Both the position numbers and the translations under genes were made by a program. A model generated the notes under the pieces. That model was not told the DNA's origin. It saw nothing but the letters and a program-made list of their open reading frames with translations, and ran no database searches. A DNA stretch of 64,000 nt. Origin: Bacteroidota bacterium. Lineage in GTDB: Bacteria > Bacteroidota > Bacteroidia > Bacteroidales > UBA4417. This document shows positions 10,449 to 61,200 of the stretch, piece by piece; positions within the stretch are counted from its first letter, which is position 1, and every line of letters begins with the position of its first letter. The stretch lies in the NCBI GenBank assembly GCA_013376995.1, contig JACAAZ010000016.1, forward strand, positions 1-64,000, read 5' to 3'.

Positions 10449-10482
10449 ATTGGAAATTAATCGGGAAATTAGACTTGTTCGG

Positions 10483-10527: not shown

Positions 10528-10603
10528 TGAGTAAATGATAATTGAATGACAATTGTATGATCCGCCAGCTGGCGAAAATGACTATTGAATGACTTTAGCC
10601 CTC

Positions 10604-10672
10604 ACCCCGCCTACTGCCTACTGCCTCCTGCCTGCTGCCCCAGCCCCCTGCTCCTTCCCTCCTATCTTCCAT
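10604..10672. repeat. Low-complexity CTGCC-rich tract running into a gene's 3' end
   Basis: A C-rich stretch built from imperfect 7-bp units (CTACTGC, CTCCTGC, CTGCTGC) overlaps the last codons of the minus-strand gene at 10618. It creates that protein's odd tail, GGKEQGAGAAGRRQ. The real gene may originally have ended earlier and been extended by repeat growth. Confidence 0.6.
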
Positions 10673-11154: not shown

Positions 11155-11182
11155 AACTTTTCCTATGTATGTTTAAAGAGCA

Positions 11183-11210
11183 AACACCATGCTTTATCGG
11201 ACATGGTGTT
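11183..11210 (-). terminator. Hairpin downstream of the hydrolase-containing giant gene
   Basis: A perfect 9-bp inverted repeat (AACACCATG 11183-11191 / CATGGTGTT 11202-11210) with a 10-nt loop lies between two minus-strand genes. On the minus strand it is followed by TGCTCTTT, only weakly T-rich. It could end the giant gene at 11332 or lie in the leader of the gene at 10618. Confidence 0.4.
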
Positions 11211-11331
11211 ATACTCACTGACTGGAATTCCCAGTTTTATTGGTAAAAGGGTTCCCGATTAGGGCATTTTATTCAGCAGGACTGCAAGATAGCCAGAATT
11301 AACAGACCTGCTGCAGCCCAGTCAATAATCA

Positions 11332-31542: not shown

Positions 31543-31564
31543 TCCTGATAAATCTGTGAATAAA

Positions 31565-40100: not shown

Positions 40101-41222
40101 GAAATAAAGGTAATCGACACAGGCAAAGGAATTGATCCTGATGAGATTGGCCAGATTTTTGAAAAATTCTACCAGGGTAAAAACATTGATCTGCACAGCT
40201 CCAAAATTGACAGTTCAGGTATTGGACTAGCCTTTACCAAAAGACTTGTTGAACTTCACCATGGAAGTATCATGGCAACAAGTGAAGCAGGAGCAGGCAC
40301 GGTCTTTTCTTTAAAACTGCCCCTTGGAAAAGATCATCTGAAAGATAATGAGATAAAGGAAGAATCGAATTTCCAGTTTAAAAAGATGGATTTCCAGGAG
40401 ATATCTGATGCATATACTCCTGATGACAATCCTTCAAGGCCGGTATTGATTGACTTACCCAATGATCATCTACCCATACTGCTAATTGTTGACGATAATC
40501 CGCAGATATGCAAGGTCATTGAAGATAAATTCTCTTCATCCTTCAGGGTAATTTCTGCCAATAGTGGTATAGATGGACTTAAAAAAGCCACAGATCAGCT
40601 TCCTGACATCATCATCTCCGACATCATGATGCCCGGGATGGATGGTATTGAGTTTTGTAAGAGAATAAAGGAAGATCTCCTCACCTGCCATATCCCGGTG
40701 ATTCTGCTTACTGCCAAAAGCGGGGATGAGAACCTGATCATAGGTATGAAAACCGGGGCTGATGCTTACATTTCGAAACCTTATAACCCGGATATTCTGC
40801 AGGTAACGGTGTCAAACCTGGTTTCTAACAGAACCCTTCTAAAAAATAAATTCACAGGGGAGCCCAATTTTGTTCCTGCTGAAGTTGTGAGCAACAAGCT
40901 CGATGAACAATTCCTGACAAAAATCATTTCACTTATCGAAAACGATGTCGATTCTGATACCATCGATGTAACCAAGATCAGCAGGGAACTGGCGATGAGC
41001 AGGTCAGTGCTGTACAGGAAGCTGAAAGCCATAACCGGGAACTCAATTCAGGATTTTGTCAGGATAGTAAAACTAAGGAAAGCAGCCCGCTTATTACTCG
41101 ACACTAACGATCCTATCGCCGACATCTCCTTCCAGTCAGGTTTCTCCAACTCCAAACATTTCAGCACGGCATTCAGGAAACAATTCGGAAAAACTCCCAG
41201 CGAATACCGTATCAAAGCCTGA
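37113..41222 (+). CDS. Hybrid two-component regulator (sensor kinase, receiver and AraC-type DNA-binding domain in one chain)
   Basis: A 1369-residue inner-membrane one-chain regulator typical of Bacteroidota PULs. Signal peptide 1-20; about 14 propeller repeats (motifs like FIWIGTRSGLNRYDG) to ~690; Y_Y_Y domain ~735-785; one transmembrane helix at ~787-812 (WAFILYSLLIFGSLILFM); HisKA domain with phospho-acceptor His848 in ISHEFKTPLTLI; HATPase ~950-1065 (NAFKYTSEGG, GIGLAFTKRLVE); receiver domain ~1120-1235 with phospho-acceptor Asp1170 in SDIMMPGMDG; AraC helix-turn-helix ~1285-1369 (GFSNSKHFSTAFRKQFGKTPSEYR). The periplasmic part probably binds a PUL breakdown product, and the output would activate susCD and neighbours (family knowledge). 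Confidence 0.95.
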   Translation: MSRIILAAILFLLVGNLSFSQGNGFFFRHLSTNDGLSHNSVYSIEQDNYGFIWIGTRSGLNRYDGYSFKTYNNNNSNLKNAYINDIFRDSKGRIWVGTQETGLSLYNFASDDFTTFAFNPSDPNNLSRNNIQTIAEDSRGRIWAGSHEDDLYWVNETKGTLVRVNLKQKLPPGSSFERINTIFFESDSLLWLGTLSGLYAYNQFSGKVRQAISVNGNIDTRVLCMFNENQSRLWLGTNTGIVIFDKKNRRIESINTSNSALSNDLILDIERLPDGRVMIATDGGGINIYDPSDGSITQLVSDPNNPNSLSNNSIYEIFIDRYKGLWVGNYLGGINYYSEYDWKFVPIKHQIDDKESLSDNHVRSFFQDKEGKIWIGTLSGLNSYDPGTGKFKYFALDKKEASTRFNAVLAIHEDKEGQLWVGTFGGGIYILDRTRSHIRKFNHPDDLTNSLDKSSIYAISETSNNRLCIASLGGIYILNNNTGKLKRYSTSNSRLSNNTVKVICRDRKGNFWLGTNQGLDYFNPDTEDMEIFLHSNSDTTSLSNNRILSMVESRDGNLWIGTEGGGISILNPLTRKFKTVSSKDGLPDNVINAIIEDDNGLFWLSTNKGLVQYEPISGKIKMYTVADGLQGNEFSQNAAIKSRDGKLYFGGSNGFNAFFPGNLVSNKNKPLVLLTDLYISGKLVKSGTENSPLSNQLFLLDKLKLTNDESNFEIHFSALGTINNGKFLYSIFMKGVDKGWSEYRDIHSANYANLRPGLYTFMVKAINNDGVSSQTPAVIEIRILPPWWKSWWAFILYSLLIFGSLILFMRLNTSRMKVQHQLELERKEKEQIEELNQLKLGFFTNISHEFKTPLTLIMGHLDNLKHAGTEKKAMTITNIERNTRRLLFLINQLLEFRKAESGLMKLMAGKGNIVLFLSGIKESFTDLARKKNITFEIRIKEPIPEIWFDAEKMEKIMFNLLSNAFKYTSEGGSITIEIQLGEYNDSKFKRVSVRFLEIKVIDTGKGIDPDEIGQIFEKFYQGKNIDLHSSKIDSSGIGLAFTKRLVELHHGSIMATSEAGAGTVFSLKLPLGKDHLKDNEIKEESNFQFKKMDFQEISDAYTPDDNPSRPVLIDLPNDHLPILLIVDDNPQICKVIEDKFSSSFRVISANSGIDGLKKATDQLPDIIISDIMMPGMDGIEFCKRIKEDLLTCHIPVILLTAKSGDENLIIGMKTGADAYISKPYNPDILQVTVSNLVSNRTLLKNKFTGEPNFVPAEVVSNKLDEQFLTKIISLIENDVDSDTIDVTKISRELAMSRSVLYRKLKAITGNSIQDFVRIVKLRKAARLLLDTNDPIADISFQSGFSNSKHFSTAFRKQFGKTPSEYRIKA

Positions 41223-45733: not shown

Positions 45734-47578
45734 ATGAAAAGAATCCTCATCCCAATTCTGCCTGCTCTGCTCCTGCTTCTTGTAAAAGGCGGATACAGCC
45801 AGGATGTTCTTATTCAGAACGTTCAGTCAAGGCATATTCAATCCCTTAACGGTAAATGGAATTACATCGTTGATCCTTATGAAATGGGGTACTATGATTA
45901 CAGGTATCTACCATATGACCAGAATCCCAAGCCGCAGGACAGGGCTTTTTATACCAATACCAAGCCTCGGGATAAAAGCGAAAGGATAGAATATGATTTT
46001 GACAAGTCCCCTACCCTGCTGGTACCTCGTGACTGGAATTCACAAAAGGAGAACCTGTTCTACTATGAGGGAACAATCTGGTACAAGAAATCCTTCGATT
46101 ATCCTTCACTGAAGGATGGAAACAGGCTCTTTGTCTATTTCGGCGCAGCAAATTATCGCTCAGATGTTTACCTGAATGGTAAGAAACTGGGAATGCATAA
46201 GGGCGGGTTTACTCCTTTCAATTTCGAAATAACAGGTTTGGTTAAGGAAAAGGATAATTTCCTGATCGTAAAGGTGGACAATAAACGAAAGGCAGAAGAA
46301 GTTCCGACGCTGAACACCGATTGGTGGAACTATGGGGGAATTACACGCGATGTTCAATTGGTGGAAACACCCGGCAATTTTATCCGTGATTACTTCCTAC
46401 AACTTGCCAAATCAAGCAATGACAGGCTTGCAGGTTATGTTCAGCTGGATGGCCCCGATATAGCTGGCAAGCCCATTGAGTTGAATATACCGGAACTGAA
46501 AACCCACCTGAACCTTACATCCAATTCCAAAGGATATGCAAAAATCGAAGTAAAAGTTGCATCGCTTAAATTATGGTCAACAGATAAACCGGTTCTTTAT
46601 AATGTTGAATTTTCCTCAGGAACTGACTTGGTAAAGGATCGAATTGGTTTCAGGACCCTTGAAACCAAGGGTGCCGATATTCTTTTAAATGGGAAACCGG
46701 TTTTCCTGAGGGGAATTTCCATTCATGAAGAAAATGCCATACGAGGGGGACGAGCCTATTCACGCGAGGATGCCCAAATGCTTCTGAACTGGGCAAAAGA
46801 ATTAGGTTGCAATTTCGTAAGGCTTGCCCATTATCCTCACAACGAGAACATCATCCGCCTTGCAGACGAAATGGGAATACTGGTATGGGAAGAAAACCCG
46901 GTTTATTGGACTATACAATGGACGAACCCGGAGACATTTGCAACTGCCTGCAACCAGCTAAAGGAGGTAGTTTCGCGAGATAAAAATCGTGCAGCAGTGA
47001 TCATCTGGTCAATGGCCAATGAAACACCTGTAAGCCCTGAAAGGAACAGCTTCCTGCACCGACTGGTTGACACAGCCCGTTCAATGGATGGTACCCGGTT
47101 AATCAGCGCAGCCCTTGAACAGCATTCAAGCCCTGACAATGAAATGATGAGGACGATTACAGACCCTTTTGCTGAATATGTTGATGTTGTGAGCTTTAAC
47201 CAGTATATAGGCTGGTATGACGGCCTTCCGGACAAATGTTCAAAGATCCAGTGGGTAATCAACCAGGATAAACCGGTAATTATTTCAGAATTGGGAGCAG
47301 ATGCACTTGGCGGTATGCATGGTGACAGCCTGACCAGGTGGAGCGAAGAATACCAGGAGTACTTTTACAAAGAGAACCTGAAAATGATCAGTAAGATTCC
47401 ACAACTTCGGGGAACAACCCCATGGATACTGGTTGACTTCCGCTCGCCAAGACGCGTATTACCCGGCATACAGGATGGATGGAACCGCAAGGGACTTATA
47501 TCTGAAACAGGGAACAGGAAAAAAGCCTTCTATATTTTACAGGATTTCTACAAAAAAATAAGTTTGAAATATGAATAA
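45734..47578 (+). CDS. Exported GH2 beta-glucuronidase
   Basis: A 614-residue enzyme from ATG 45734 (the longer frame opens at a TTG and would mask the signal peptide). Signal peptide 1-23 (VKGGYSQ). GH2 sugar-binding, Ig-like and TIM-barrel domains follow. Catalytic acid/base Glu430 lies in WSMANE and nucleophile Glu519 in ISELGAD. The tail GWNRKGLISETGNRKKAFY contains Asn584-x-Lys586, matching the N-x-K pair that binds the glucuronate carboxylate in known beta-glucuronidases, which supports glucuronidase over galactosidase. It should release glucuronate from PUL oligosaccharides in the periplasm. The stop overlaps the SDR start by 8 nt (ATGAATAA), so translation is coupled. Confidence 0.88.
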   Translation: MKRILIPILPALLLLLVKGGYSQDVLIQNVQSRHIQSLNGKWNYIVDPYEMGYYDYRYLPYDQNPKPQDRAFYTNTKPRDKSERIEYDFDKSPTLLVPRDWNSQKENLFYYEGTIWYKKSFDYPSLKDGNRLFVYFGAANYRSDVYLNGKKLGMHKGGFTPFNFEITGLVKEKDNFLIVKVDNKRKAEEVPTLNTDWWNYGGITRDVQLVETPGNFIRDYFLQLAKSSNDRLAGYVQLDGPDIAGKPIELNIPELKTHLNLTSNSKGYAKIEVKVASLKLWSTDKPVLYNVEFSSGTDLVKDRIGFRTLETKGADILLNGKPVFLRGISIHEENAIRGGRAYSREDAQMLLNWAKELGCNFVRLAHYPHNENIIRLADEMGILVWEENPVYWTIQWTNPETFATACNQLKEVVSRDKNRAAVIIWSMANETPVSPERNSFLHRLVDTARSMDGTRLISAALEQHSSPDNEMMRTITDPFAEYVDVVSFNQYIGWYDGLPDKCSKIQWVINQDKPVIISELGADALGGMHGDSLTRWSEEYQEYFYKENLKMISKIPQLRGTTPWILVDFRSPRRVLPGIQDGWNRKGLISETGNRKKAFYILQDFYKKISLKYE

Positions 47579-48422
47579 ACCCGGATTCGACGACCTCAAC
47601 AACAAAATTGTAGTAATTACCGGAGGAGCCGGCGTAATTGGAACTTCCATTGCAATAGGCCTTGGCTGGCTGGGAATGAAGACTGTAATTCTGGATATTG
47701 ATCCGGAAGCTGCCGGGAAAACGGCAGAAACGGTCCAGAAAACCACCGGGAGCCTTTCTTTTGGAATACCGGCAAATGTTCTCGATAAACAATCGCTCCA
47801 ATCAGCCAAAGAGGTCATCAACAAAACGATCGGAAAGATCGATTTCCTGATAAACGGTGCCGGGGGCAATTCTCCTAAGGCAACAACACAGGTGGAAGAG
47901 ATCCTGCCAACTGGCCTGGGACATCTCGAAGCAACTTTTTATGGCCTTGAGATGGAAGGATTTCAAAGAGTATTTGATCTCAATTTCATGGGCACCTTAC
48001 TCCCAACTATGGTTTTCACTGACGATATGCTTGCTGGTAAAAAAGGAGCGGTACTTAATATCTCCTCCTTGAATTCGTTCAGGCCTTTGACCAAAATACC
48101 AGCATATTCTGCCGCCAAAGCTGCAGTAAATAACTTTACAGAGTGGCTGGCTGTTCACCTGGCTAAAACAGGAATTCGCGTGAATGCCATATCTCCTGGC
48201 TTTTTCCTTACCAATCAGAACCGTTTTCTATTGATTGACGAAGAAACCGGCAAATTGAAACCCCGGGGGGAAAAAATCATCAACAATACACCTATGGGGC
48301 GCTTCGGTGAACCTGATGAACTTCTAGGAGCTGTTGCATACCTACTTTCCGATTGCTCCAGGTTTGTTACGGGGACTGTTCTGCTGGTCGACGGTGGCTT
48401 TAATGCATACAGCGGTGTTTAG
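47571..48422 (+). CDS. SDR oxidoreductase, probable D-fructuronate reductase / D-mannonate oxidoreductase
   Basis: A 283-residue short-chain dehydrogenase. Nucleotide-binding TGGAGVIG lies near the N-terminus, NGAGGNSPK follows, and the catalytic Ser-Tyr-Lys set is in NISSLNSF and YSAAKAA. SDRs of this size beside uxaC and a sugar kinase in Bacteroidota usually interconvert D-fructuronate and D-mannonate, replacing the unrelated UxuB. Reduction of an alginate-derived keto-uronate is the alternative. The coupled start inside the GH2 gene and the uxaC gene downstream favour the fructuronate role. The acidic residue at the end of beta-strand 2 (ILDIDPE) suggests NAD(H) preference. Confidence 0.75.
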   Translation: MNKPGFDDLNNKIVVITGGAGVIGTSIAIGLGWLGMKTVILDIDPEAAGKTAETVQKTTGSLSFGIPANVLDKQSLQSAKEVINKTIGKIDFLINGAGGNSPKATTQVEEILPTGLGHLEATFYGLEMEGFQRVFDLNFMGTLLPTMVFTDDMLAGKKGAVLNISSLNSFRPLTKIPAYSAAKAAVNNFTEWLAVHLAKTGIRVNAISPGFFLTNQNRFLLIDEETGKLKPRGEKIINNTPMGRFGEPDELLGAVAYLLSDCSRFVTGTVLLVDGGFNAYSGV

Positions 48423-48452
48423 ATTTTTTTTACTACAGAAAAGACTTCAACA

Positions 48453-49532
48453 ATGGGAATAAAACTTAAAACGGATTTTACCTGGTCCCTGCTGGTCCCA
48501 ACCAGCATGGGCATCAGGATTACTCCTGTTGATAGCCAGCCGGTTCATAGCAGCGATTTATTCAGGATGCAGGTTACCAGCGCTGAAACAAATGTTGCCA
48601 GCATCCCGGCTTGTCTCGGGCTCCCTGTAAAAGTACTCACCATCTTCGTGAAAGGTAGCCCGATAGCACAGATGATCAAAAACAACCTTGCTTCCAGGCA
48701 TATGGCTTACGAAGGCAAGGAAATTGCCCAGGATGGCCCATGGGGTTACAGGCACCAGTTTAACATAGCCGATAGCGGATTCGGATCCAGGGGGCCGAGA
48801 GTTCAGAATGACCGGGCAGGTGAAGTAGGGAGGCTCCTGAATGCAAGCCATTTTGACCTTGAAAGGATATTTGCGAAGGAAGGTGTCCAGGTGGTTCATT
48901 TGTCGGGACTTATTGCAGCCCTTTCGCCAGATACCAGTGCTTTCTGCCTGGAGCTTGCAAGGGTTGCAAAAAAGCATGGCACTTGTATATCCTTCGACCT
49001 GAACTACCGTGCATCGTTTTGGAAAGGCAGGGAAAAGGAATTACGCGAAATTTTTACGGAAATTGCCTCGCTATCGGATATACTGGTTGGGAATGAGGAA
49101 GATTTCCAGCTATGCCTCGGCATGGAAGGCCCGGAAGCCGGTGGCAAAAGCCTTGAGGCTCACATCGACAGTTTTAAAATAATGATTGCGCAGGCACAAA
49201 AAGCGTTTCCCGGAACTTCAGTATTCGCTACAACACTGCGTGAAGTTATCAACGCAAATCAACATCTCTGGGGTGCAATCCTTCGCGAAAGCAACTCCTG
49301 GCACGTTATTGAACCCCGTGAAATTCATGTACTCGATCGCATAGGTGGAGGAGATGGATTTGTCGGCGGCTTGATTCATGGATTCCTCAGAAGCTGGGAT
49401 GCTGAAAAATGCATGCAGTTCGGCTGGGCCAGCGGGGCATTGGCAACTACCTTCCTTACCGATTATGCACAACCGGCTGATGAGGAAATGGTTTGGAGTA
49501 TATGGGAAGGAAATGCCAGGGTGAAAAGATAA
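48453..49532 (+). CDS. kdgK: PfkB-family sugar-acid kinase, KDG-kinase-like
   Basis: A 359-residue cytosolic kinase. PfkB signatures: LDRIGGGDGFVGG with the catalytic Asp near the C-terminus, and ISFDLNYRASFWKG and DILVGNEEDFQLCLG, which resemble 2-keto-3-deoxygluconate (KDG) kinases. The N-terminus (WSLLVPTSMGIRITPVDSQ) lacks the usual FGEIMLRLS-type beginning of KdgK, and the acceptor-site part is diverged, so another sugar acid such as gluconate is possible. It lies 30 nt behind the SDR gene. The window contains no KDPG aldolase, which a KDG route would need from elsewhere in the genome. Confidence 0.72.
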   Translation: MGIKLKTDFTWSLLVPTSMGIRITPVDSQPVHSSDLFRMQVTSAETNVASIPACLGLPVKVLTIFVKGSPIAQMIKNNLASRHMAYEGKEIAQDGPWGYRHQFNIADSGFGSRGPRVQNDRAGEVGRLLNASHFDLERIFAKEGVQVVHLSGLIAALSPDTSAFCLELARVAKKHGTCISFDLNYRASFWKGREKELREIFTEIASLSDILVGNEEDFQLCLGMEGPEAGGKSLEAHIDSFKIMIAQAQKAFPGTSVFATTLREVINANQHLWGAILRESNSWHVIEPREIHVLDRIGGGDGFVGGLIHGFLRSWDAEKCMQFGWASGALATTFLTDYAQPADEEMVWSIWEGNARVKR

Positions 49533-49796
49533 ACAGCCCGGATCTATTGATAGCCTTAGTGCCCACAATAAGCATCATGCTTCCATGATCCTGATGAAAA
49601 AGTAAATCAAGTGAATTAAGGCTGTTGATCAACCATTTCTATTATAAATCCATGTGCTATAGCCGGCAGAGAATTTCTTATCTTTCGCAACTATGGTATT
49701 TCTGATCATAATACATAATTGAAAAATTGATAAGAGAAGAATCAACATAATTTAACAAATCACCGTTCATCAAAATAACCACTAGCCAGGAAGTCA

Positions 49797-51068
49797 ATGC
49801 TGTTCTATAACCGCGGATCCACTACTAATGAAATAAAGCCAGCGGAACTCCGTCAGGGCTTATACCAGGCGTTGGATCAACTGGGCAGCAAGAGGAAAGT
49901 CCTGCTGATTCCCCCTGATTTTACCCGGTTTCATTCCCAGGCAGGTATCCTGACCCGAATGGCCTGGGATTACTATGGGGATGCTGTTAAAGATATTCTG
50001 CCTGCTTTGGGTACACATGTTCCAATGACAGGACAGGAATTGGACATGATGTTCAGCGGAGTTCCACATAAGCTCTTCAGGGAACATAACTGGAGGAATG
50101 ATGTAATTACCCTGGGGGAAGTCCCTGTTGAATTTGTCAGGAAAGTATCCGGTAACCTGGTTGATTTTTCATGGCCGGCACAGGTAAATAAAATCCTGGT
50201 TGAAGGAAATTACGACCTGATCCTTTCACTCGGGCAGGTTGTCCCCCATGAAGTAATTGGAATGGCCAATTACAACAAGAATATTTTTGTTGGTACAGGA
50301 GGCAGGGAAGGAATAAATAAAAGCCACTTCCTGGGTGCAGCATTCGGAATGGAACGAATCATGGGCCGGGCAGATAACCCGGTTCGCAAAGTATTGAATT
50401 ATGCATCTGAGCATTTTGCATCTCATCTGCCAATCGTCTATGCCCATACAGTTGTCACCCGGGCTGAAGATGGCTCAATGAAAGTGAAAGGCCTGTTCAT
50501 CGGTGATAATGCAGATTGCTTTAACCTTGCTGCTGAATTATCCCTCAAGGTAAATTTCGAACTGCTGGATAAACCATTGCAAAAAGTTGTGGTCTATCTT
50601 GATCCATCCGAATTCAAAAGCACCTGGCTGGGGAATAAGAGCATTTACAGGACCCGCATGGCCCTGGCTAAAGATGCCGAACTTATCATACTTGCCCCCG
50701 GGCTGAAGGAATTTGGCGAAGACCGCGAAATTGACAGGCTGATCAGAAAATACGGTTACCGGACAACACCGGAAATCATGGATCAGGTTAAGCTTAACCC
50801 TGAGTTACAGCAAAATCTGAGCGCTGCAGCACATCTCATCCATGGTTCTGCTGAAAACAGGTTCTCGGTAACTTATTGCCCGGGGAAACTAAGTAAAGAA
50901 GAAATCGAAAGTGTTAACTTTAGTTTCGGTGACCTTCAGACTTATTCTCAAAAGTATGATCCGCATAAGCTTAAAGATGGGTTTAACGAGGTTAACGGTG
51001 AAGAAGTATTTTACATCTCCAATCCCGCATTGGGCCTTTGGGCCTGGGATCAAAGATTCAAGGACTAA
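49797..51068 (+). CDS. LarA-family (nickel-pincer hydroxyacid racemase/epimerase superfamily) protein
   Basis: A 423-residue homologue of lactate racemase LarA (~424 residues). Family motifs seen: PPDFTRFHSQAG (Asp41, Arg44), ALGTHVPMTGQE (His74), VVPHEVIGMAN (His151) and GTGGREGINKSHF. In Lactiplantibacillus LarA the last motif reads GGRK and its Lys184 is covalently bound to the nickel-pincer cofactor; here that position appears to be Glu171, with a lysine four residues later (Lys175). The superfamily includes a D-gluconate 2-epimerase, which would convert mannonate to gluconate, and its position between a sugar-acid kinase, pdxB and gnd suits such a substrate. Activity and cofactor use are unproven. 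pdxB starts 5 nt later. Confidence 0.7.
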   Translation: MLFYNRGSTTNEIKPAELRQGLYQALDQLGSKRKVLLIPPDFTRFHSQAGILTRMAWDYYGDAVKDILPALGTHVPMTGQELDMMFSGVPHKLFREHNWRNDVITLGEVPVEFVRKVSGNLVDFSWPAQVNKILVEGNYDLILSLGQVVPHEVIGMANYNKNIFVGTGGREGINKSHFLGAAFGMERIMGRADNPVRKVLNYASEHFASHLPIVYAHTVVTRAEDGSMKVKGLFIGDNADCFNLAAELSLKVNFELLDKPLQKVVVYLDPSEFKSTWLGNKSIYRTRMALAKDAELIILAPGLKEFGEDREIDRLIRKYGYRTTPEIMDQVKLNPELQQNLSAAAHLIHGSAENRFSVTYCPGKLSKEEIESVNFSFGDLQTYSQKYDPHKLKDGFNEVNGEEVFYISNPALGLWAWDQRFKD

Positions 51069-51073
51069 TTGAA

Positions 51074-52219
51074 ATGGATAAGGTGAAAATCATTGCTGAC
51101 GAAAATATCCCTTTCCTTAAAGGGGTTCTGGAGCCATATGCTGACATCACCTACATGAAAGGTGACAAAATAAACCATGAGACAGTTCAGCATGCTGATG
51201 CCTTGCTGATTCGTACCCGGACAACCTGTAACTCTTCCCTTCTCAAAAACACAGCTGTCAAGTTCATTGGAACGGCTACAATTGGATTTGATCACATTGA
51301 TACACAATTTTGTGATTCGAAGAAAATTACCTGGATCAACGCACCGGGTTGCAATTCATCATCTGTTCAGCAATACATAGCATCAGCCCTCATTGAATTA
51401 GCCAATCGATATAAAATCAGGCTCAAAGGCAAGACACTTGGAATCATAGGAGTTGGTAATGTAGGAAGTAAAGTAGAGAAGATTGGCAGAGCTTTAGGGA
51501 TGAATGTTGTAATGAACGACCCACCCAGGGCAAGAAATGAAAAGCATCATCATTTTGTCCCCCTGGAAGTCCTTGCCGCCAGTTCCGATATTATCTCAGT
51601 TCACGTGCCACTCAACTTGTCAGGCCAGGATAAAACAAAAGACCTAATTAACAATCAACTGATTAAGATCATGAAACCCGGTGCTTGTCTTATCAATTCG
51701 TCAAGGGGTGAAGTGGTAAACACCCTGGCGATTAAGCAAGCTCTTGCAAATGGTAACCTGGCTTTGGCAATTCTGGACGTTTGGGAAAAAGAACCGGCTA
51801 TTGACCTGGCCTTATTGAAGGCGGTATTTATTGGCACTCCGCACATTGCAGGATATTCCACTGATGGAAAAGCAAACGGGACTGCTATGGTAGTTCAGGC
51901 AATCAGCAGGAAATTCGGCTTTCCGCTTAATGATTGGTATCCATCCCAACTTCCGGTTCCCGATAGCATACAAATCGAACTTGACGGAACTGGGAAAAAC
52001 CTGGAAGATATATTGGCAGAAGTCCTTCCTAAAACTTATGACATCAGGACAGATGATAAAAACCTCCGCTCAGACCCGGGCAAGTTTGAGCAACTTCGCA
52101 GCCAATACCAGGTAAGGCGTGAATTTACTGCATATACCTTACATACTTCTAACCTTGAAGCCGCTGCAGTAAAAGTGTTAGCTGACCTTGGATTTAAACT
52201 CATTGAATCGAAAAAATAG
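51074..52219 (+). CDS. pdxB: 4-phosphoerythronate dehydrogenase
   Basis: A 381-residue D-2-hydroxyacid dehydrogenase, close to the ~378 of E. coli PdxB. It oxidises 4-phosphoerythronate in pyridoxal-phosphate synthesis. The NAD site is GIIGVGNVGSKV; catalytic Arg is in NSSRGEVV, Glu in WEKEPAID and His in GTPHIAGYSTDGK, the last being the PdxB-type signature. The extra C-terminal ~90 residues match the PdxB dimerisation domain. ATG 51074 is preferred over an in-frame start at 51038 that overlaps the LarA gene. It is unusual to find it in a uronate cluster, so another hydroxyacid substrate is conceivable. Confidence 0.87.
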   Translation: MDKVKIIADENIPFLKGVLEPYADITYMKGDKINHETVQHADALLIRTRTTCNSSLLKNTAVKFIGTATIGFDHIDTQFCDSKKITWINAPGCNSSSVQQYIASALIELANRYKIRLKGKTLGIIGVGNVGSKVEKIGRALGMNVVMNDPPRARNEKHHHFVPLEVLAASSDIISVHVPLNLSGQDKTKDLINNQLIKIMKPGACLINSSRGEVVNTLAIKQALANGNLALAILDVWEKEPAIDLALLKAVFIGTPHIAGYSTDGKANGTAMVVQAISRKFGFPLNDWYPSQLPVPDSIQIELDGTGKNLEDILAEVLPKTYDIRTDDKNLRSDPGKFEQLRSQYQVRREFTAYTLHTSNLEAAAVKVLADLGFKLIESKK

Positions 52220-52243
52220 TTTCCTGAATAATACAAATACATT

Positions 52244-53698
52244 ATGAATGAATTAGCAGACATCGGGCTGGTAGGGCTTGCAGTAATGGGAGAGAACCTG
52301 GTCCTGAATATGGAAAGCAAGGGATTTGTTGTTTCTGTATACAACCGCACCACTGAAAAGGTAGACCAGTTTTTGGCTGGAAGAGGAAAAGATAAAAAAA
52401 TCTTTGGCTGTCATTCGCTGGAGGAATTGACCCGCTCACTAAAGTCACCCCGGAAGGTGATGCTTATGGTTAAAGCTGGTAAAGCTGTGGATGACTTCAT
52501 CGAACTGCTTATTCCACACCTGGAAAAGGGAGATATTATCATTGATGGTGGAAACACCTTATACACTGATACTAACAGACGCACTAAATATCTAGAAGAC
52601 AAGGGCCTATTATACATCGGAACCGGTGTTTCAGGCGGGGAAGAAGGTGCACTTCTGGGCCCTTCCATCATGCCCGGGGGGTCAAAAGCGGCCTGGCCAT
52701 TTGTGAAACCTGTTTTCCAGGCGATAGCTGCCAGGGTAGCCGATGGAACGCCTTGTTGCGACTGGGTAGGTGAGAATGGTGCCGGGCATTTTGTAAAAAT
52801 GGTACATAACGGTATTGAATATGGAGATATGCAGCTTATCTGTGAAGCATACCAGATCATGAAGGAAGTTCTGGGGATGTCAGCGGATGAAATGCAAAAC
52901 GTATTCGCCGAATGGAATAAAGGCAGCCTGGAGAGTTACCTCATAGAAATTACCCGAGACATACTCGGTTTTAAAGACGAAGATGGTGGACCACTGGTCG
53001 ACAAAATCCTGGATACAGCAGGCCAGAAAGGTACAGGCAAATGGACAGGAATCGCTGCTTTGGACCTGGGAGTTCCCCTTACCCTGATTGGCGAAGCTGT
53101 TTTTGCCAGGATTGTATCTTCTCAGAAAGATGAAAGGGTAAATGCTGCAGGAAAGCTCACAATCCCTAAAATTGCCTTCAGCGGAAATAAGGAACAGTTT
53201 ATCAAGGATCTTGAAAACGCTTTATTTGCATCCAAAGTAGTTTCCTATGCACAGGGATATCTCCTGATGAAAAGTGCCGCCGGGGAATATGGCTGGAATC
53301 TCAATTATGGTGGAATTGCCTTGTTATGGCGAGGGGGATGTATCATACGTTCCGTCTTCCTTGGTAAGATTAAGGATGCATTTGAAAACAACCCGCAATT
53401 ACCTAACCTGCTGCTGGATCCATATTTCAAAGATAAAATACTGCAATCGCAGGAAGGCTGGCGAAGAGTTGTAACTACAGCGATTCAACTTGGCATATCC
53501 GTGCCGGCATTTTCATCCGCCCTTACCTATTTTGACGGATATCGTTCTGACAGGCTTCCGGCGAACCTCCTTCAAGCTCAGCGTGACTATTTTGGAGCTC
53601 ACACCTATGAACGCACTGATCGTCCGAGAGGAGAGTTTTTCCACACCAATTGGACCGGAAGAGGCGGAGAGACATCCTCATCTACTTATACGGTCTGA
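52244..53698 (+). CDS. gnd: 6-phosphogluconate dehydrogenase (decarboxylating)
   Basis: A 484-residue cytosolic enzyme converting 6-phosphogluconate to ribulose-5-phosphate with NADP. The cofactor loop is GLVGLAVMGENLVLNM; the active-site segment is GENGAGHFVKMVHNGIEY, with the catalytic lysine and conserved His-Asn. The C-terminal substrate-binding tail FHTNWTGRGGETSS is standard. Length is normal and no defect is seen. It follows pdxB by 24 nt, so it is probably in the same transcript. Confidence 0.96.
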   Translation: MNELADIGLVGLAVMGENLVLNMESKGFVVSVYNRTTEKVDQFLAGRGKDKKIFGCHSLEELTRSLKSPRKVMLMVKAGKAVDDFIELLIPHLEKGDIIIDGGNTLYTDTNRRTKYLEDKGLLYIGTGVSGGEEGALLGPSIMPGGSKAAWPFVKPVFQAIAARVADGTPCCDWVGENGAGHFVKMVHNGIEYGDMQLICEAYQIMKEVLGMSADEMQNVFAEWNKGSLESYLIEITRDILGFKDEDGGPLVDKILDTAGQKGTGKWTGIAALDLGVPLTLIGEAVFARIVSSQKDERVNAAGKLTIPKIAFSGNKEQFIKDLENALFASKVVSYAQGYLLMKSAAGEYGWNLNYGGIALLWRGGCIIRSVFLGKIKDAFENNPQLPNLLLDPYFKDKILQSQEGWRRVVTTAIQLGISVPAFSSALTYFDGYRSDRLPANLLQAQRDYFGAHTYERTDRPRGEFFHTNWTGRGGETSSSTYTV

Positions 53699-53776
53699 GC
53701 AGTATATTATGATTCTTGTATTATGATCCTGAAGGAACAATTATAATCTATTGGCAACCTATCAATCTATTTCGGA

Positions 53777-55078
53777 ATGAGAATCAGCCCAGGGAAAGAT
53801 CACCCATTTTCCGGTTTCCTGTCAGGTTTACTCCTGCTGATAGTGTTTGTTACCGCCGGGCAAGCCCAGGAAAATACAATAGCAATTTTTGGTTCTTCAG
53901 TTGCCAATGGATCAGGCGATACTACCGGCGCCGGTGGATATGCAGGCTTATTGTCAAGAAAACTTGCATTACAGCACTGGAATGTTATAAATGTTTCTCG
54001 GGGGGGCGACAATACTACTAAAATCCTTCCCAGGTTCGACAGCCAGCTCCTGCCCTTGCACCCTGCTTATGTTATCATTGGACTTTCATTGGGAAATGAA
54101 GGTATTGCCAACTCCTCGGAATTGGTAAGGAACAGGGTTTTTGAAAAGTACAGGAGCGGCATGCTGCAACTCATCCAGCTTTGCAGGAAGAACGGCATGA
54201 ACCCTATTGTAACAAACTGCTATGAGCGGAACGATTTTTTACCAGAGCAATATGAAGCTGTCAAACAGATGAACCTGATTATCAATACCTGGGATGTTCC
54301 CAGTGTAAACTTCCTGGGTCCCCTGGACAATGGTTCGGGAAACTGGTTAAGCGGTTTTGATCATGACAGGGCACATCCAAATTACAAGGGTCACCAGGAA
54401 TTATTCTACTCATTCGTTCCTTCATTATTCGATGCAATAAAAGCGGGGAAACCGGTTCCTCAAAAAATCAGGAGCAGTAGCTACATGGTTGTTTCTGGTC
54501 CGGAATCAATCTCCCCACTTTCCTTTATTCCTGATGACACAATACATTCTTTCTCCCTGTGTTTCTTGGTGAAAACCGGCAATGATGGGGTAATCGCAGC
54601 TATCATAGGAGATAAAAACTCCTATATCGAAGTCAAAAAAGGCAAGATAGAGTACCACGCAGTAAACGGAGAAATTCTCTCAACAGATACCACAAGTGAA
54701 AACAAAGGCTGGCAATACCTTGCAGTTTCCCATCAATATGCCTCAGGTCTGACCTTATTTTATGTGAATGGAAAACTTGCAGGCAAGGTTGCAGAACTTA
54801 TTGATCCAAAGAAGATGGTCATTGGAGGTAGTGCTGGTATCGAAGCCGATGGCGCGCCTCAAACTGCCGGGTACAAGGATGTATTGATTTACAGGTCAAC
54901 TCTTAACAGTGATGAAGTAAAGGCCTTATATTACAACCAACTACTGCAATCAAGCCTCGAAATATACGCTCCTCTTAACGATGCTGAATTCAAAGCCGGC
55001 ACATCAGCAACAAATTATGCACAAAGCCTTTCGAAACTAATCATTCAAGGCAACACCAATAAACATGCAGAGGAATAA
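53777..55078 (+). CDS. Secreted SGNH/GDSL hydrolase with LamG-like domain
   Basis: A 433-residue exported protein. Signal peptide 1-31 (TAGQAQ). The SGNH esterase domain (32-230) shows the four blocks: FGSSVANGSG with the nucleophile Ser, VSRGGDN with Gly, GLSLGNEG with Asn, and DRAHPN with the Asp-x-x-His pair. The remaining ~195 residues form a LamG/concanavalin-type sandwich (IHSFSLCFLV, WQYLAVSHQYASGLTLFYVNGK, YKDVLIYRSTLNSDEV). It probably removes acetyl, methyl or other ester groups from the PUL's glycan so that the glycosidases can proceed; the actual ester is unknown. It sits between gnd and uxaC with ~77-nt gaps. Confidence 0.82.
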   Translation: MRISPGKDHPFSGFLSGLLLLIVFVTAGQAQENTIAIFGSSVANGSGDTTGAGGYAGLLSRKLALQHWNVINVSRGGDNTTKILPRFDSQLLPLHPAYVIIGLSLGNEGIANSSELVRNRVFEKYRSGMLQLIQLCRKNGMNPIVTNCYERNDFLPEQYEAVKQMNLIINTWDVPSVNFLGPLDNGSGNWLSGFDHDRAHPNYKGHQELFYSFVPSLFDAIKAGKPVPQKIRSSSYMVVSGPESISPLSFIPDDTIHSFSLCFLVKTGNDGVIAAIIGDKNSYIEVKKGKIEYHAVNGEILSTDTTSENKGWQYLAVSHQYASGLTLFYVNGKLAGKVAELIDPKKMVIGGSAGIEADGAPQTAGYKDVLIYRSTLNSDEVKALYYNQLLQSSLEIYAPLNDAEFKAGTSATNYAQSLSKLIIQGNTNKHAEE

Positions 55079-55154
55079 AAACAAGTAAAACTGAATTAAC
55101 AAAATACCGACAGTTAATAAGATTGCACCTAAAACTACTAACACATTCAGGAAT

Positions 55155-56561
55155 ATGAAAGATTTTATGGATAAGGATTTTCTCCTGTCGAACGATACTG
55201 CAGCGAAACTCTATCATACTTATGCCCAACCCCAACCCATTATTGATTATCATTGTCACCTGGATCCCCGCGATATTGCAGCAGACACCTGTTTCGAGAA
55301 CCTTACCCGTATCTGGTTAAATGGCGACCATTATAAATGGCGTGCCATGAGGACCAATGGCATTCATGAACGCTACTGCAGCGGTGATGCTTCGGATAAG
55401 GATAAATTCATGAAATGGGCCGAAACAGTCCCGGCAACTGTAAAAAACCCGCTCTTCCATTGGACACACCTGGAACTCAGCAGGTATTTCGGGATAAATA
55501 AAATTCTGAATCCTCAAACTGCAGGCGCTATCTATGAAGAAGCCTCTGAAAAACTTCGGACACAAGAGTTTTCCGTCCGGAACCTGTTACGGAAAATGAA
55601 TGTTGAACTTGTCTGCACTACCGATGACCCCATCGATAACCTGGAATTTCATAAGAAAATACATGATGACGGATTCGAAATAAAAGTGGTTCCTGCATGG
55701 CGTCCTGATAAAGCAATGAGTATCGAAAATCCTGCAGCCTATAATATATACCTGTCAAAACTGGAAGCTTCTTTAAATAGCTCTATTCATAACTTTTACG
55801 ATATGATGGAAGCCTTGAAATCGCGCCATCAATTTTTCCATGATAATGGTTGCCGCCTCAGCGACCATGGATTGGATACCTTCTATGCAGAAGAATATAC
55901 TGAAGCTGATATCCGGTTCATTTTTCACAAGGTCAGGGAAGGTAAAACCCCTGATGCGGAACAAATTGCCAAGTTTAAGTCTGCTATGCTTTACCACCTG
56001 GCGGTGATGGACCAGGAAGCCGGCTGGGTACAACAGTTCCATGTAGGGCCGATGAGAAATAATAATACCGGTATGTTTAACAGTATCGGGCCGGATACCG
56101 GCTTTGATTCCATTGGTGATAAACCGGTAGCTCAGAGCATGTCCTGGTTTCTCGATAAGCTGGCTTTCAATAACAAACTGGCCAAAACCATACTGTACAA
56201 TTTAAATCCTGCTGATAATGAAGTGTATGCAACAATGATCGGCAATTTCCAGGATGGAACCACCCCCGGCAAGATACAGTGGGGTGCAGCATGGTGGTTC
56301 CTTGATCAGAAACCGGGCATGGAACGCCATCTTGAAACACTGTCTTCATTGGGCTTGCTGAGCCGATTCGTAGGCATGCTGACCGATTCAAGGAGCTTCC
56401 TTTCATTTCCAAGGCATGAATACTTCAGGAGAACCCTCTGCAATATGATCGGCAAAGACATTGAAAACGGGGAGATCCCGAATGATATGGACTGGATCGG
56501 AAACATGGTTGCAGATATTTGTTACCGCAATGCCCGGAATTATTTCAATTTCTGGAATTGA
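55155..56561 (+). CDS. uxaC: Glucuronate isomerase
   Basis: A 468-residue cytosolic enzyme (E. coli UxaC about 470) converting D-glucuronate to D-fructuronate, or galacturonate to tagaturonate. It belongs to the amidohydrolase superfamily: the metal-binding pair is in IIDYHCHLDPRDIA near the N-terminus, followed by TRIWLNGDHYKWRAMRTNG, VELVCTTDDPIDNLEFH, VVPAWRPDKAM, WVQQFHVGPMRNNNTGMF and LTDSRSFLSFPRHEYFRR, all typical of the family. ATG 55155 is used; 55167 is also possible. It supplies the substrate for the SDR, and the MFS gene follows after 49 nt. Confidence 0.96.
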   Translation: MKDFMDKDFLLSNDTAAKLYHTYAQPQPIIDYHCHLDPRDIAADTCFENLTRIWLNGDHYKWRAMRTNGIHERYCSGDASDKDKFMKWAETVPATVKNPLFHWTHLELSRYFGINKILNPQTAGAIYEEASEKLRTQEFSVRNLLRKMNVELVCTTDDPIDNLEFHKKIHDDGFEIKVVPAWRPDKAMSIENPAAYNIYLSKLEASLNSSIHNFYDMMEALKSRHQFFHDNGCRLSDHGLDTFYAEEYTEADIRFIFHKVREGKTPDAEQIAKFKSAMLYHLAVMDQEAGWVQQFHVGPMRNNNTGMFNSIGPDTGFDSIGDKPVAQSMSWFLDKLAFNNKLAKTILYNLNPADNEVYATMIGNFQDGTTPGKIQWGAAWWFLDQKPGMERHLETLSSLGLLSRFVGMLTDSRSFLSFPRHEYFRRTLCNMIGKDIENGEIPNDMDWIGNMVADICYRNARNYFNFWN

Positions 56562-56610
56562 CCATTCAAGTGATAAGGCTCCATAAATCATCAAAACCAG
56601 CTAAGAAATC

Positions 56611-57975
56611 ATGAAACAAAACAAGGAACTCATAAACAAGATTGGGAAATACCGCTGGGTTATTGTATCCCTTCTCTTATTCTCCACTACTATCAATTAT
56701 CTTGACAGGCAGGTTATCTCTTACCTGAAGGAGTTCTTTTGTTCGCCGGTTTCAACCGGTGGATTTGGTTGGACAAACACTGACTTTGCCTTCATAACCT
56801 CATTTTTTACCGGTTTCTATGCCGGCATGACGATCATTGCCGGCTGGGCAATCGATAAGATCGGCACCAAGCTGGGGCTGGCCATTTCACTGATCATCTG
56901 GTCCATTTTTGGAATGCTGAATGCACTTGCAGGATCTGTCATCGGAATCCACATAGCCATCCGAAGCCTGTTTGGTGTTGGTGAAGCCGGCAACTTCCCG
57001 GCATCCATCAAAACAGTAGCAGAATGGTTCCCAAAGAGAGAGAGAGCCCTGGCTACAGGTATTTTCAACAGCGGATCAAACCTGGGTGCTATGATTGCTG
57101 CCTTATTTGTTCCCTGGTGTATGGTAATGTTCGGCGACCAGCTTGGGTGGAAGATGGCTTTTGTAATTACCGGCGCTATAGGATTCATCTGGCTGATCTT
57201 CTGGTTCTGGCTTTATGAATCCCCAAAAAAACAGAAACGGCTTAAGGAAGCTGAGTATAAATACATTCACAGTGATGATGAAGACACTCCGCAATACTCA
57301 ACCAATGATGGAGATAAAGCTAAGGTCTCCTGGGGGAAACTGTTCAATTTCCGCCAGACCTGGGCATTTTTTGTTGGAAAGTTCATGACCGATGGAATAT
57401 GGTGGTTCTATTTGTTCTGGCTGCCCGATTACCTGAAAAAACAGTTCGGGATGACCAAATCAGAGGTCATGTGGCCAACATTCATTGTTTACGGAATCGC
57501 GATCTTTGGAAGCGTTTTTGGCGGAAGTATTCCGATGCTAATGATGAGAAAGGGAATGGCAGTATATAAGGCGAGGATGACTTCTATGTTGCTGATCGCA
57601 ATTGTGCCTTTGAGCGTATTATTTACGCAGTACTTTGGCAATGTAGCAGTTTTTGGTGGCAATGCTTCTACTCTTGCCATAATGGTGATCTGCCTGGGAG
57701 CAGCAGCCCACCAGGCCTGGTCGGCGAACCTTTTTACCACAGTCTCTGATATGTTCCCGAAGAAAGCTGTAGGCTCAGTGGTTGGTATAGGCACAATGGC
57801 AGGGGGTATCGGTGGAGTGCTTGTACAATTGCTTGCAGGCAGGCTGACAGATACCTTCAGCAGTACACCCAAAGTAGCCTATGGTATTATGTTCATCATT
57901 TGTGCCTTGAGTTATCTTTTGGCATGGACTCTAATGAAATTGCTGGTACCAAAACATAAATTGGTAAATATTTAA
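56611..57975 (+). CDS. exuT: MFS hexuronate-type permease (ExuT-like)
   Basis: A 454-residue inner-membrane transporter with twelve predicted helices, of the anion:cation symporter branch of the major facilitator superfamily. The first helix ends with TTINYLDRQVISYLKE, the typical motif of hexuronate/tartrate permeases. GWAIDKIGTKLGLAIS and SLFGVGEAGNFPASIKTVAEWFPKRERALATG segments, each characteristic of the family, follow. It should move glucuronate (or galacturonate) released in the periplasm into the cytosol for UxaC. It is the last gene of the cluster, followed by a terminator. Confidence 0.88.
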   Translation: MKQNKELINKIGKYRWVIVSLLLFSTTINYLDRQVISYLKEFFCSPVSTGGFGWTNTDFAFITSFFTGFYAGMTIIAGWAIDKIGTKLGLAISLIIWSIFGMLNALAGSVIGIHIAIRSLFGVGEAGNFPASIKTVAEWFPKRERALATGIFNSGSNLGAMIAALFVPWCMVMFGDQLGWKMAFVITGAIGFIWLIFWFWLYESPKKQKRLKEAEYKYIHSDDEDTPQYSTNDGDKAKVSWGKLFNFRQTWAFFVGKFMTDGIWWFYLFWLPDYLKKQFGMTKSEVMWPTFIVYGIAIFGSVFGGSIPMLMMRKGMAVYKARMTSMLLIAIVPLSVLFTQYFGNVAVFGGNASTLAIMVICLGAAAHQAWSANLFTTVSDMFPKKAVGSVVGIGTMAGGIGGVLVQLLAGRLTDTFSSTPKVAYGIMFIICALSYLLAWTLMKLLVPKHKLVNI

Positions 57976-58286: not shown

Positions 58287-61200
58287 ATGAAACTTATTAT
58301 TCTTTTCATTCTTTTGCTATCAATTGGCGTCGTCCATGCAACCGGGCTTACCGGAACCTATAATATCCCGGGTGATTACAATACATTGGCTGCAGCTATC
58401 ACTGATCTCAATACTCAAGGAGTAGGCCCCGGAGGTGTAATCCTTAACCTGCTTCCCGGTAACCCGGAGACAGCGCCTGCCGGTGGATACTCAATCACAA
58501 CGCTCGGTGGAACCTCTGCAAACCCAGTTATCATTCAGGGAAATGGAAATACAATCACTGCATATTCGCCTCAGTTAGCAGGTGCACTTAATGATGCCAT
58601 TTTTAAGATCATCGGGGGGGATTATATCACCATCCAGGGATTCATAATGCAGGAAAACATTGCTAATACAATCACTACGGCAGCGTCAAATAACATGACA
58701 GAATTTGGCATTGCCTTGTTTTATACTACGTTTACAGATGGGGCAAAAAATATTACCATACAGAATAATACTATTTCCCTGAGCCGGCTGTACCAAAATT
58801 CATTCGGGATCTATTCCAATGTAAGGCACACAGCCACTAATGTTACTGCGGTTTCTGATATTGCCAGTATTCTCGGCTCTAACGACAACACAAAAATATA
58901 CAGCAATACCATTTCGGATGTCAACCAGGGAATAGTGATAGTTGGTTCAAATACCGGAACCTTTATGAACAAAGGAATCGACATAGGCGGTACTTCTCCT
59001 GCAACTGCTAACACCATCTATAATTACGGGCTCACCTCAAATTTCTCGGCATTTGTTTCTGTTTCAATTTCCGTAATGGGAATCAACCTCAACAACTGCT
59101 TGAATTCCAATATCTCATACAATTCGGTAAGTTGCCCCGGTTTAAATTCTTCCGGCTCTGTTTATGGGATTTATGCCCAGGTATCTGGAACCCTGCCTAC
59201 ATCCGGAGGGCCTTTTATGAACACATTCTCGCATAACAACCTTTCCATTAAAAGTGGCCTGGTAACGGGTAATGTTTACGGCCTGTTCAATGGTGTTGGA
59301 AATTCATTGATCTCCTATGATGAGAGTTACAATGACTTTAACAATATGGGACATAACGGAACCGCCCCTTCAGGAAGCCTCTATTGTCTTTATTCTTCCG
59401 GTGCCGGAAATGCACAAACCATCAATTACAACACCTTTACAAACCTCTCGCCTGCCACTACCGGTTCTGTATATATGATTTATTATAACTCCAGCCTGCC
59501 GCTTGCCAGTTCAACCCAAACTTTATCCTATAACTCAATAGTAACAGGATTCAATAAGCCCGGAGGAGGATCTGCAACCTATTGCATGTATTCCAATTCC
59601 AGTTCTGTCGCCGGAAGCACCAAAACGATTTCATTCAATAATTTCTCTAACATCACATTAACCGGTTCCACTGCACTCGTAGGATTTCAGGACACCGACG
59701 GAGGGTCGCCTGTGAAATCGATTCATGATAATACCTTAAGTAATGTGACAGGTGGATCAGGGACTATAACCGGCTTGAATTTCAATTATGGCTCTGCCAG
59801 CATCTACAATAATACCTTCAGTAATATCAGTGGGTCCGGAGCAATAAATGTAATGTCCTGCGGTGGCAGTAATGCTACTTCCCAGAATGTTTATTCAAAC
59901 AGTATTAGCGGAATCTCATCAACCGGAGCATCCGCTATTTACGGCATTCAATCCCTTGCCTCAGGCTCGGGAGCTATCTCTAACATATACAAAAATAAAA
60001 TCTGCAACATTTCAGGCTCCAATGCCAGCAGTGTAGTTTACGGCATCTATATATCTGCAGGTACTACTATCAATACTTACAATAATATGATCTCTGATCT
60101 GAAGTCACCTGCGGTTAATGCAGCCAATAACCTTGCAGGTATATACATTTCAGGAGGAACCACCAATAATGTGTTCTACAATTCAGTTTACCTGTCTGGT
60201 ACGAGCACAGGAGCAATATTTGGTAGCTCGGCACTTTATGCCTCAACCATCCCGGTTCTGGATATGCGGGATAATATTCTTGTCAACACTTGCATACCAG
60301 TAGGAGCTGCCGGATTTGCGGCCGCATTCCGCAGAAGTACAGCTACCCTGACTACCTATTCGAATAATTCAAATGCCAATTGTTTATATGCCGGCAGCCC
60401 GGGCCCAAATAATCTTCTCTACTATGATGGCACTAATTCCTGCCAGACGATGACTGCTTACCAGTCTGTTGTTTCGCCACGTGACATCCTTTCTTTCAGC
60501 GAACTCCCTCCGTTTATTGGGGGGATTTCCTGCTTTGATTTACACTTCCAACCGGTAATGAACAGTTTGTGCAGCAGTGGGGCAGTTTCCATTACATCGC
60601 CCATTTCCATCACAGATGATATTGATGGAAATATCCGCTCTTCGTTTCCCGATGTAGGGGCTGATGAATTTGAAAGTTATGAGTGTTGCCTTCCCCCTCT
60701 CAATTTCAATGCAACTATTATAAGTTCACAGCAAATCAATCTGACATATAGCCTGAATCCATCGAACGACAGTGTAATGATCGTTTGGAATACAACGGGG
60801 ATGTTCACGGCTCCTGTTGGCTCCCCGCTTGTGGGTAGCTCAATGGCGGGTGGAACAGTGCTTTCATACGGAATTGCAACATCGATTAGCCACACGGGTC
60901 TTACACCGGGAATTACTTATTATTATAAGGCTTTTTCGCGGCCAGGCAGCAGCTATTCCGCTGGTGTCACTGCATCAGGAATTCCTTCTGTAGCTCCACC
61001 TTCCGGATTATCAGCTAACGCAGTCAGCTCTTCACAGGTTAATCTTGCCTATACACTCAATCAACAGTCCAATAACGTGGTTATTGCCACCAATAACAGT
61101 CCTGCTTTCGGGAACCCTGTAAATGGAACTGCACTAAACCTGAATGATATAATTCCGGGTGGAGGCACAGTTATCTATACCGGCCCTGCCAATTCCTTCA

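Follow-up and report, generated by a model that had tools for sequence, protein, structure and literature searches.

The stretch analyzed here (the window) comprises bases 1-64000 of contig C8 of genome G000, which has a size of 5.05 Mb in 43 contigs and a completeness of 96.66%. It contains a cluster of nine genes at 45734-57975, all on the plus strand, which was delimited by open reading frames and Pfam and NCBIfam scans. The products include a LarA-superfamily protein, a PfkB-family kinase, and a 6-phosphogluconate dehydrogenase (Gnd). The cluster probably encodes a non-dehydrating pathway of hexuronate catabolism, leading from glucuronate through fructuronate, mannonate, gluconate, and 6-phosphogluconate to ribulose-5-phosphate.

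Gene layout and the LarA-type protein

The cluster opens with a beta-glucuronidase-like GH2 glycosidase (45734-47578), which carries Pfam GH2 domains and scored best with the NCBIfam model PRK10150 (273 bits, below the cut-off of 544). It is a possible source of glucuronate, overlaps the start of the next gene by 8 bases, and has a counterpart of 73% identity in the same position of locus L055. The second gene (47571-48422) encodes a short-chain dehydrogenase/reductase (SDR), predicted to be a D-fructuronate reductase/D-mannonate oxidoreductase (NF006132, 368 bits; cut-off 281). The third product, the PfkB-family kinase (48453-49532), is a predicted D-gluconate 6-kinase; the diverged N-terminus ascribed to it in an initial annotation of the region is real, as the Pfam PfkB domain aligns with residues 145-333 only. 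It is followed by the LarA-superfamily protein (49797-51068), a group 18 hexonate 2-epimerase with predicted specificity for D-mannonate/D-gluconate (NF052594, 655 bits; cut-off 500), a PdxB-like 4-phosphoerythronate dehydrogenase of the 2-hydroxyacid dehydrogenase type (51074-52219; NF001309, 432 bits against a cut-off of 434), and Gnd, of the decarboxylating type (52244-53698; TIGR00873, 774 bits; cut-off 427). The last three genes encode an accessory SGNH/GDSL esterase with a laminin-G-like domain identified by Pfam (53777-55078; same place in L055, 56%), glucuronate isomerase UxaC (55155-56561; PF02614, 1.2e-207; NF002794, 645 bits, cut-off 387), and a sugar-acid carrier of the major facilitator superfamily (MFS), likely serving hexuronate uptake (56611-57975; PF07690; TIGR00893, 226 bits, below the cut-off of 395). 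From GH2 to MFS, the successive intergenic gaps are -8, 30, 264, 5, 24, 78, 76, and 49 bases. The SDR, kinase, LarA, Gnd, and UxaC genes named in the initial annotation were all confirmed by the family scans, whereas uxaC lies beyond the interval it had given for the cluster and the PdxB-like gene between LarA and Gnd had been overlooked.

The family NF052594 is labelled as a nickel-dependent putative hexonate epimerase. The fold model of the LarA-like protein (pLDDT 88.9) retrieved 19 Foldseek matches at E ≤ 0.001, all of them LarA-superfamily entries. The best match was 4nar, the Thermotoga maritima GntE2 (E 2.3e-24, TM 0.77, 24% identity in the structural alignment), which is also the nearest PDB sequence. 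In the alignment, residues D41, R44, H74, H151, K161, H177, and K281 of the window protein correspond to D38, R41, H73, H154, K164, H180, and K287 of 4nar; R41, K164, and H180 are named as cofactor residues of GntE2, an enzyme assayed on D-mannonate, in the available passages of PMC7583248. The cofactor-binding and catalytic residues (Asp, two His, and Lys) are invariant in all 21 LarA sequences of the order, and the signature residues E152 and V153 (loop EV/S) and W277 (helix 11) are present in the window protein. These features point to a predicted D-mannonate/D-gluconate 2-epimerase.

Distribution of the cluster genes and the kinase

Each genome-wide absence was run with positive controls that gave matches in the same search; about 3% of the G000 sequence is possibly missing, and single absences are not proof. 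UxuA (PF03786) had no match in the whole genome (ManD was not searched for), and neither had the 2-keto-3-deoxy-6-phosphogluconate (KDPG) aldolase Eda (PF01081; the search did not extend to 2-keto-3-deoxygluconate (KDG) aldolases of other folds). Zwf (PF02781) was not found in G000, and the single Gnd match (PF00393) is the cluster copy. The reported lack of a mannonate dehydratase and a KDPG aldolase in the window therefore holds and, for UxuA and PF01081, extends to the whole genome, with Zwf in addition. No hexuronate exit other than this cluster was found in G000, nor, with Zwf not detected, any other evident source of substrate for Gnd. An assignment of the cluster to the classical KDG route was rejected, since UxuA and Eda were not found in G000.

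For comparison within the order, one fixed set of 149 genomes was used; since these genomes share ancestry, the p-values make the cases look more independent than they are. LarA of the NF052594 family occurs in 21 of them, under 18 family codes. Full-length Gnd was detected in 20 of the 21 LarA-positive genomes versus 14 of the 128 LarA-negative ones (19 of 128 with short Gnd-like matches counted); the sole LarA-positive genome without Gnd is G074, where the contig breaks off within the operon, after PdxB. Zwf was present in 14/21 versus 18/128. Eight genomes have full-length Gnd without Zwf: seven are LarA-positive and UxuA-free, and the eighth is G148. An SDR related to that of the window (42-67% identity) was found in 20/20 of the relatives' loci and UxaE-type genes in 12/20. 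This combination of genes was met again in 20 loci from 18 families of the order, not counting the window's own, as well as in named loci from other phyla, and is thus not a chance assembly. At L031 (6427-7264, genome G118), two 143-aa pieces of Gnd stand beside an intact Gnd, with one genome match containing an in-frame stop; they look like a decayed duplicate.

Outside the order, the best 80 of 578 confirmed LarA relatives were taken as named loci, so more exist; gene counts refer to the fetched stretches only, many contigs being short, and taxa follow the record titles. These include Bacteroidota, Ignavibacteriota, Planctomycetota, Verrucomicrobiota, Acidobacteriota, Spirochaetota, Lentisphaerota, and others. 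Among these 80 loci, an SDR at ≥50% was found in 40, UxaE in 28, PdxB in 25, UxaC at ≥50% in 25, and UxuA and Eda in 8 each. The nearest layout is that of L055, from an uncultured Bacteroidales bin, with the same order GH2-SDR-PfkB-LarA-PdxB-Gnd-SGNH-UxaC-MFS and one extra small frame. Conservation of the gene set elsewhere without uxuA and eda was borne out in part: UxuA was not found in 12 of the 21 LarA-positive genomes, G000 among them, whereas UxuA or Eda adjoins the cluster in some relatives. In Maribellus sp. YY47, UxuA lies beside the cluster.

No NCBIfam kinase model exceeded its cut-off with the window kinase. The scores reached 93 of 440 bits for NF041332, 43 of 400 for NF040938, and 28 of 400 for NF052444, all KDG-kinase models, and 160 of 700 bits for the aldolase/kinase fusion model NF041633; no gluconokinase model was among the families matched. 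A protein search of G000 at 1e-8 retrieved only the kinase itself, and no close KdgK paralogue was seen. Across the order, orthologues (E ≤ 1e-100) were found in 17 of the 149 genomes, namely 16/21 LarA-positive and 1/128 LarA-negative (Fisher 3e-16); all 17 have full-length Gnd, and 8 have UxuA. The gene stands in or beside the operon in 11 LarA-positive genomes, the window included, elsewhere on the LarA contig in G007 and G125, and on another contig in G108, G112, and G043. The LarA-negative exception is G148, in which neither Zwf nor LarA of the NF052594 family was found and the orthologue (60% identity; locus L153, 8771-9844) directly precedes Gnd (9853-11322).

Four LarA-positive genomes in which the kinase orthologue was not found (G022, G038, G074, and G136) carry a PFK-family protein and a HAD-type hydrolase in the kinase slot. 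For the G136 pair, scans returned PF00365 and NF010675 (352 bits; cut-off 273) for the PFK and HAD_2 for the hydrolase; the other three pairs fall in the same sequence clusters. From its position only, the PFK-family protein would be a substitute kinase. The PFK and HAD pair occurs at L046 (10665-12945) and at L029, L040, L044, L081, L092, L118, and L119; the motif of the L046-type PFK reads GGNDS, and the L046 protein matches a pyrophosphate-dependent PFK model. Among the 80 named loci, a PfkB kinase at ≥60% was found in 26, PFK in 7, and both in none, and a KdgK-like gene in 12. A second, KdgK-like paralogue besides the window-type kinase was observed in four loci of the order (L027, L031, L033, and L037) and in five named loci. 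The Acidobacteriaceae locus L111 contains a LarA-UxaE-GntK-SDR run with a GntK/IdnK-type gluconokinase (TIGR01313, 161 bits; cut-off 114). Another Acidobacteriaceae locus, L127, has a protein with a gluconokinase motif in the same place (motif only, not separately scanned). Three unrelated kinase families thus stand beside one epimerase type and point to 6-phosphogluconate as the common product; by this context, the PfkB kinase is a predicted D-gluconate 6-kinase.

Proposed hexuronate route and its alternatives

From the gene content, families, residues, absences, and co-occurrence, all read from sequence, we infer the substrates, directions, and cofactors of the following route. Glucuronate would be released by the GH2 enzyme, imported by the MFS carrier, and isomerized by UxaC to fructuronate, which the SDR would reduce to D-mannonate. 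The LarA-type enzyme would invert C2 to give D-gluconate, the PfkB kinase would form 6-phosphogluconate, and Gnd would decarboxylate the latter to ribulose-5-phosphate with the formation of NADPH. A glucuronate-to-pentose-phosphate route through LarA and Gnd, as put forward in the initial annotation, has the most support among the readings. Neither UxuA, Eda, nor Zwf was detected, the cluster holds the one Gnd of the genome, the distribution of the kinase in the 149 genomes follows that of LarA and Gnd, a gluconokinase stands beside LarA in L111, and the GntE2 residues are kept.

Several observations weigh against this route. The 264-base gap 5' of the LarA gene leaves room for a second promoter, and the genes may lie on more than one transcript. 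The absences established for G000 cover UxuA, Eda, and Zwf, but not ManD, other gluconokinases (such as FGGY), Edd, or other-fold KDG aldolases. UxuA is positively associated with LarA in the order (9/21, one of them a fragment in G007, versus 20/128; p = 0.007), and the LarA route does not in general replace UxuA there. Gnd was found in only 47 of the best 80 of 578 loci, or in 30 of the 42 flanked by over 4.5 kb on each side, and within the fetched stretches was not seen in the Acidobacteriota and several Verrucomicrobiota loci. The nearest solved structure to the kinase is the KDG kinase 2afb. In the fetched stretches of L065, L068, L074, and L097, all of them named loci, a KdgK-like gene occurs and no PfkB of the window type, which argues against a strict link. 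G006 (L028) has an SDR-LarA-PdxB-Gnd operon and LarB/C/E in the genome, and neither kinase type was found (searched genome-wide for the kinase and only in the 13.8-kb contig for PFK). Finally, for the biosynthesis of the nickel-pincer nucleotide (NPN) cofactor, G000 gave no LarC match and best scores of 37 bits for LarE (cut-off 150) and 50 bits for LarB (cut-off 175).

The same genes would reach the same end product if phosphorylation came first, the kinase making 6-phosphomannonate and the LarA-type enzyme epimerizing it to 6-phosphogluconate. Such activities were shown in Lactobacillus suebicus extracts, with no gene assigned in the available part of PMC6978723, and a hexonate substrate for group 18 was hypothesized, not tested, in the 2020 paper (PMC7583248, part of the text). 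Further mannonate/gluconate epimerases were added in 2024, with no group 18 test noticed in the passages of PMC11770544 at hand. This order of steps is nevertheless unlikely: in G148, the kinase directly precedes Gnd and no LarA of the NF052594 family was found, which fits a gluconate substrate, a GntK/IdnK-type gluconokinase accompanies LarA in L111, and the tested LarA relatives act on free mannonate according to the same part of PMC7583248.

Still less probable is a classical route in disguise, in which the kinase would be a KDG kinase, ManD and an other-fold KDG/KDPG-cleaving enzyme would complete the pathway, and LarA and Gnd would be side branches. In sequence, the closest relatives of the kinase are KDG kinases, and both the eight loci each with UxuA and Eda and the four loci with the KdgK-like gene alone speak for this version. 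In G000, however, no UxuA, Eda, or second PfkB paralogue at 1e-8 was found, the kinase accompanies full-length Gnd in 17/17 genomes and UxuA in only 8/17, and the KdgK-like paralogues occur besides the window-type kinase in the nine loci noted above. We regard as very improbable that the LarA-type enzyme acts on another hexonate (for example, one of an L-gulonate/L-idonate or an altronate/allonate pair), with the Gnd neighbourhood reflecting a different sugar acid. The group 19 enzyme GntE1 has a high Michaelis constant with mannonate and is suspected by the authors of that work to have a different native substrate (PMC7583248, same passages); the UxaE-type genes in 12/20 loci suggest galacturonate entry too. 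UxaE, though, interconverts tagaturonate and fructuronate, again leading to mannonate (PMC6353982, available passages), and UxaC, the mannonate-type SDR, and Gnd bracket the mannonate-to-gluconate step.

The PdxB-like gene was found in 14/20 of the relatives' loci of the order, and its presence did not separate genomes by their LarB/C/E status (7/8 without LarB/C/E versus 8/13 others; p = 0.34). According to the passages available of PMC6449344, 4-phosphoerythronate inhibits Gnd, and in Bacillus it is cleared by a proofreading phosphatase. The PdxB-like enzyme of the LarA-Gnd cluster could clear this inhibitor; alternatively, it may serve pyridoxal phosphate synthesis or act as a 2-ketohexonate reductase.

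Upstream of the cluster, the window contains a SusC/SusD-like pair (28522-33187) and two CBM96-bearing proteins (23537-26974 and 33292-35646), a region which is likely a polysaccharide utilization locus. Three very long frames are near-equal in size: 11332-15441 (1369 aa), 37113-41222 (1369 aa), and 19056-23144 (1362 aa); the scanned part of the first gave esterase-type and fn3 matches. No Pfam domain was matched in the first 738 residues of the frame at 58287-63656 (1789 aa), which directly follows the MFS carrier. A search with a Bacteroidetes promoter pattern gave 0 matches, against 2 expected.

Nickel-pincer cofactor and comparison with known systems

LarC was detected in 13 of the 21 LarA-positive genomes of the order (weak and broken in G143) versus 3/128 LarA-negative ones, and LarE and LarB exceeded their cut-offs in an identical set of 16 of the 25 genomes tested. 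In several genomes, LarB, LarC, and LarE are neighbours, e.g., on contig C26 of G002, so that a single gap could take away all three. In eight of the 21 LarA-positive genomes (G000, G022, G058, G072, G074, G096, G108, and G136), none of LarB, LarC, and LarE was found. Assembly gaps were rejected as a general cause, 8/21 being far above the expectation at 5% missing sequence (binomial 4e-6; 6e-4 at 10%); for G000 alone, such a gap may be the cause. Decay of LarA in these genomes was also rejected: the 17 checked positions do not differ between genomes with and without LarB/C/E, nor does any alignment column separate the two sets.

Beyond the order, 50 of the 80 named genomes were searched for LarC only, their completeness not being given; it was found in 31 (three fragments) and not found in 19. 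One of the latter is Maribellus sp. YY47, a record not labelled in its title as a metagenome-assembled genome. On a quick LarA tree of 71 rows, in which 29 of 68 inner branches are weak, the LarC label requires 17 changes (about 22 on average when shuffled), at least 9 of them forced by well-supported branches; LarC presence and absence are therefore interleaved on the tree. LarA in hosts without LarB/C/E may depend on salvage, novel biosynthesis, or another cofactor. Tentatively, and short of calling it probable, we suggest that many bacteria using this route are natural NPN auxotrophs, which have kept an intact LarA operon, repeatedly dropped LarB-LarC-LarE, and rely on neighbours for the cofactor or a precursor, or else on novel enzymes of their own. 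In that case, NPN would be shared within communities in the way vitamin B12 is. The reverse pattern, larB, larE, and larC with no larA, is given for about 15% of genomes in the passages available of PMC11796402, and no description of LarA without LarB/C/E was found in the accessible portions of the open-licence literature.

If the proposed route is correct, uronate use giving NADPH and pentose phosphate without Entner-Doudoroff enzymes or Zwf would be widespread and redox-neutral, and a function would be gained for LarA group 18 and for a PfkB clade now resembling only KDG-kinase models. It would also raise the question of how a nickel-pincer enzyme runs in organisms without detectable nickel-pincer biosynthesis genes. 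The GntE route is not described in the passages of PMC5673643, PMC5507952, PMC13274419, and PMC6353982. As far as the open-licence literature was searched, the new elements are the PfkB or PFK kinases with a dedicated Gnd, genomes in which no other route was found, and the lack of the cofactor pathway.

The first two steps, UxaC and a mannonate-forming reductase, are common to the classical UxaC-UxuB-UxuA-KdgK-Eda pathway, whereas UxuA and Eda were not found in G000. With the LarAH groups 19 and 20 (GntE1 and GntE2), the window LarA shares the superfamily, the cofactor and catalytic residues, and the loop (EV/S) and helix-11 (W) signatures, while itself belonging to group 18 (NF052594). It also has the catalytic histidine, unlike the LarA relatives treated in the available part of PMC12611868. 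In the L. suebicus galacturonate route to the phosphoketolase pathway, mannonate likewise enters as 6-phosphogluconate and proceeds to ribulose-5-phosphate in a redox-cofactor-neutral manner, whereas phosphorylation precedes epimerization and no genes are assigned; LarA or lactate racemase is not mentioned in the main text of PMC6978723.

The logic of mannonate to gluconate to 6-phosphogluconate was proposed for Thermotoga by Rodionova et al. in 2012, as cited in the passages at hand of PMC6978723 and PMC7583248, and the two enzymes GntE1 and GntE2 were shown to be active in 2020 (PMC7583248, part of the text). The T. maritima GntE route, as described there, shares with the proposed one the conversion of hexuronate to mannonate, a LarA-type 2-epimerase, gluconate, a kinase, 6-phosphogluconate, and pentose phosphates. 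T. maritima itself, used as a control, matches in UxuA, Zwf, Eda, and LarC searches, in contrast to G000, in which UxuA, Eda, Zwf, and LarB/C/E were not found. The T. maritima kinase is called a gluconate kinase in the available passages of PMC6978723, whereas the window has a PfkB kinase and carries Gnd inside the cluster.

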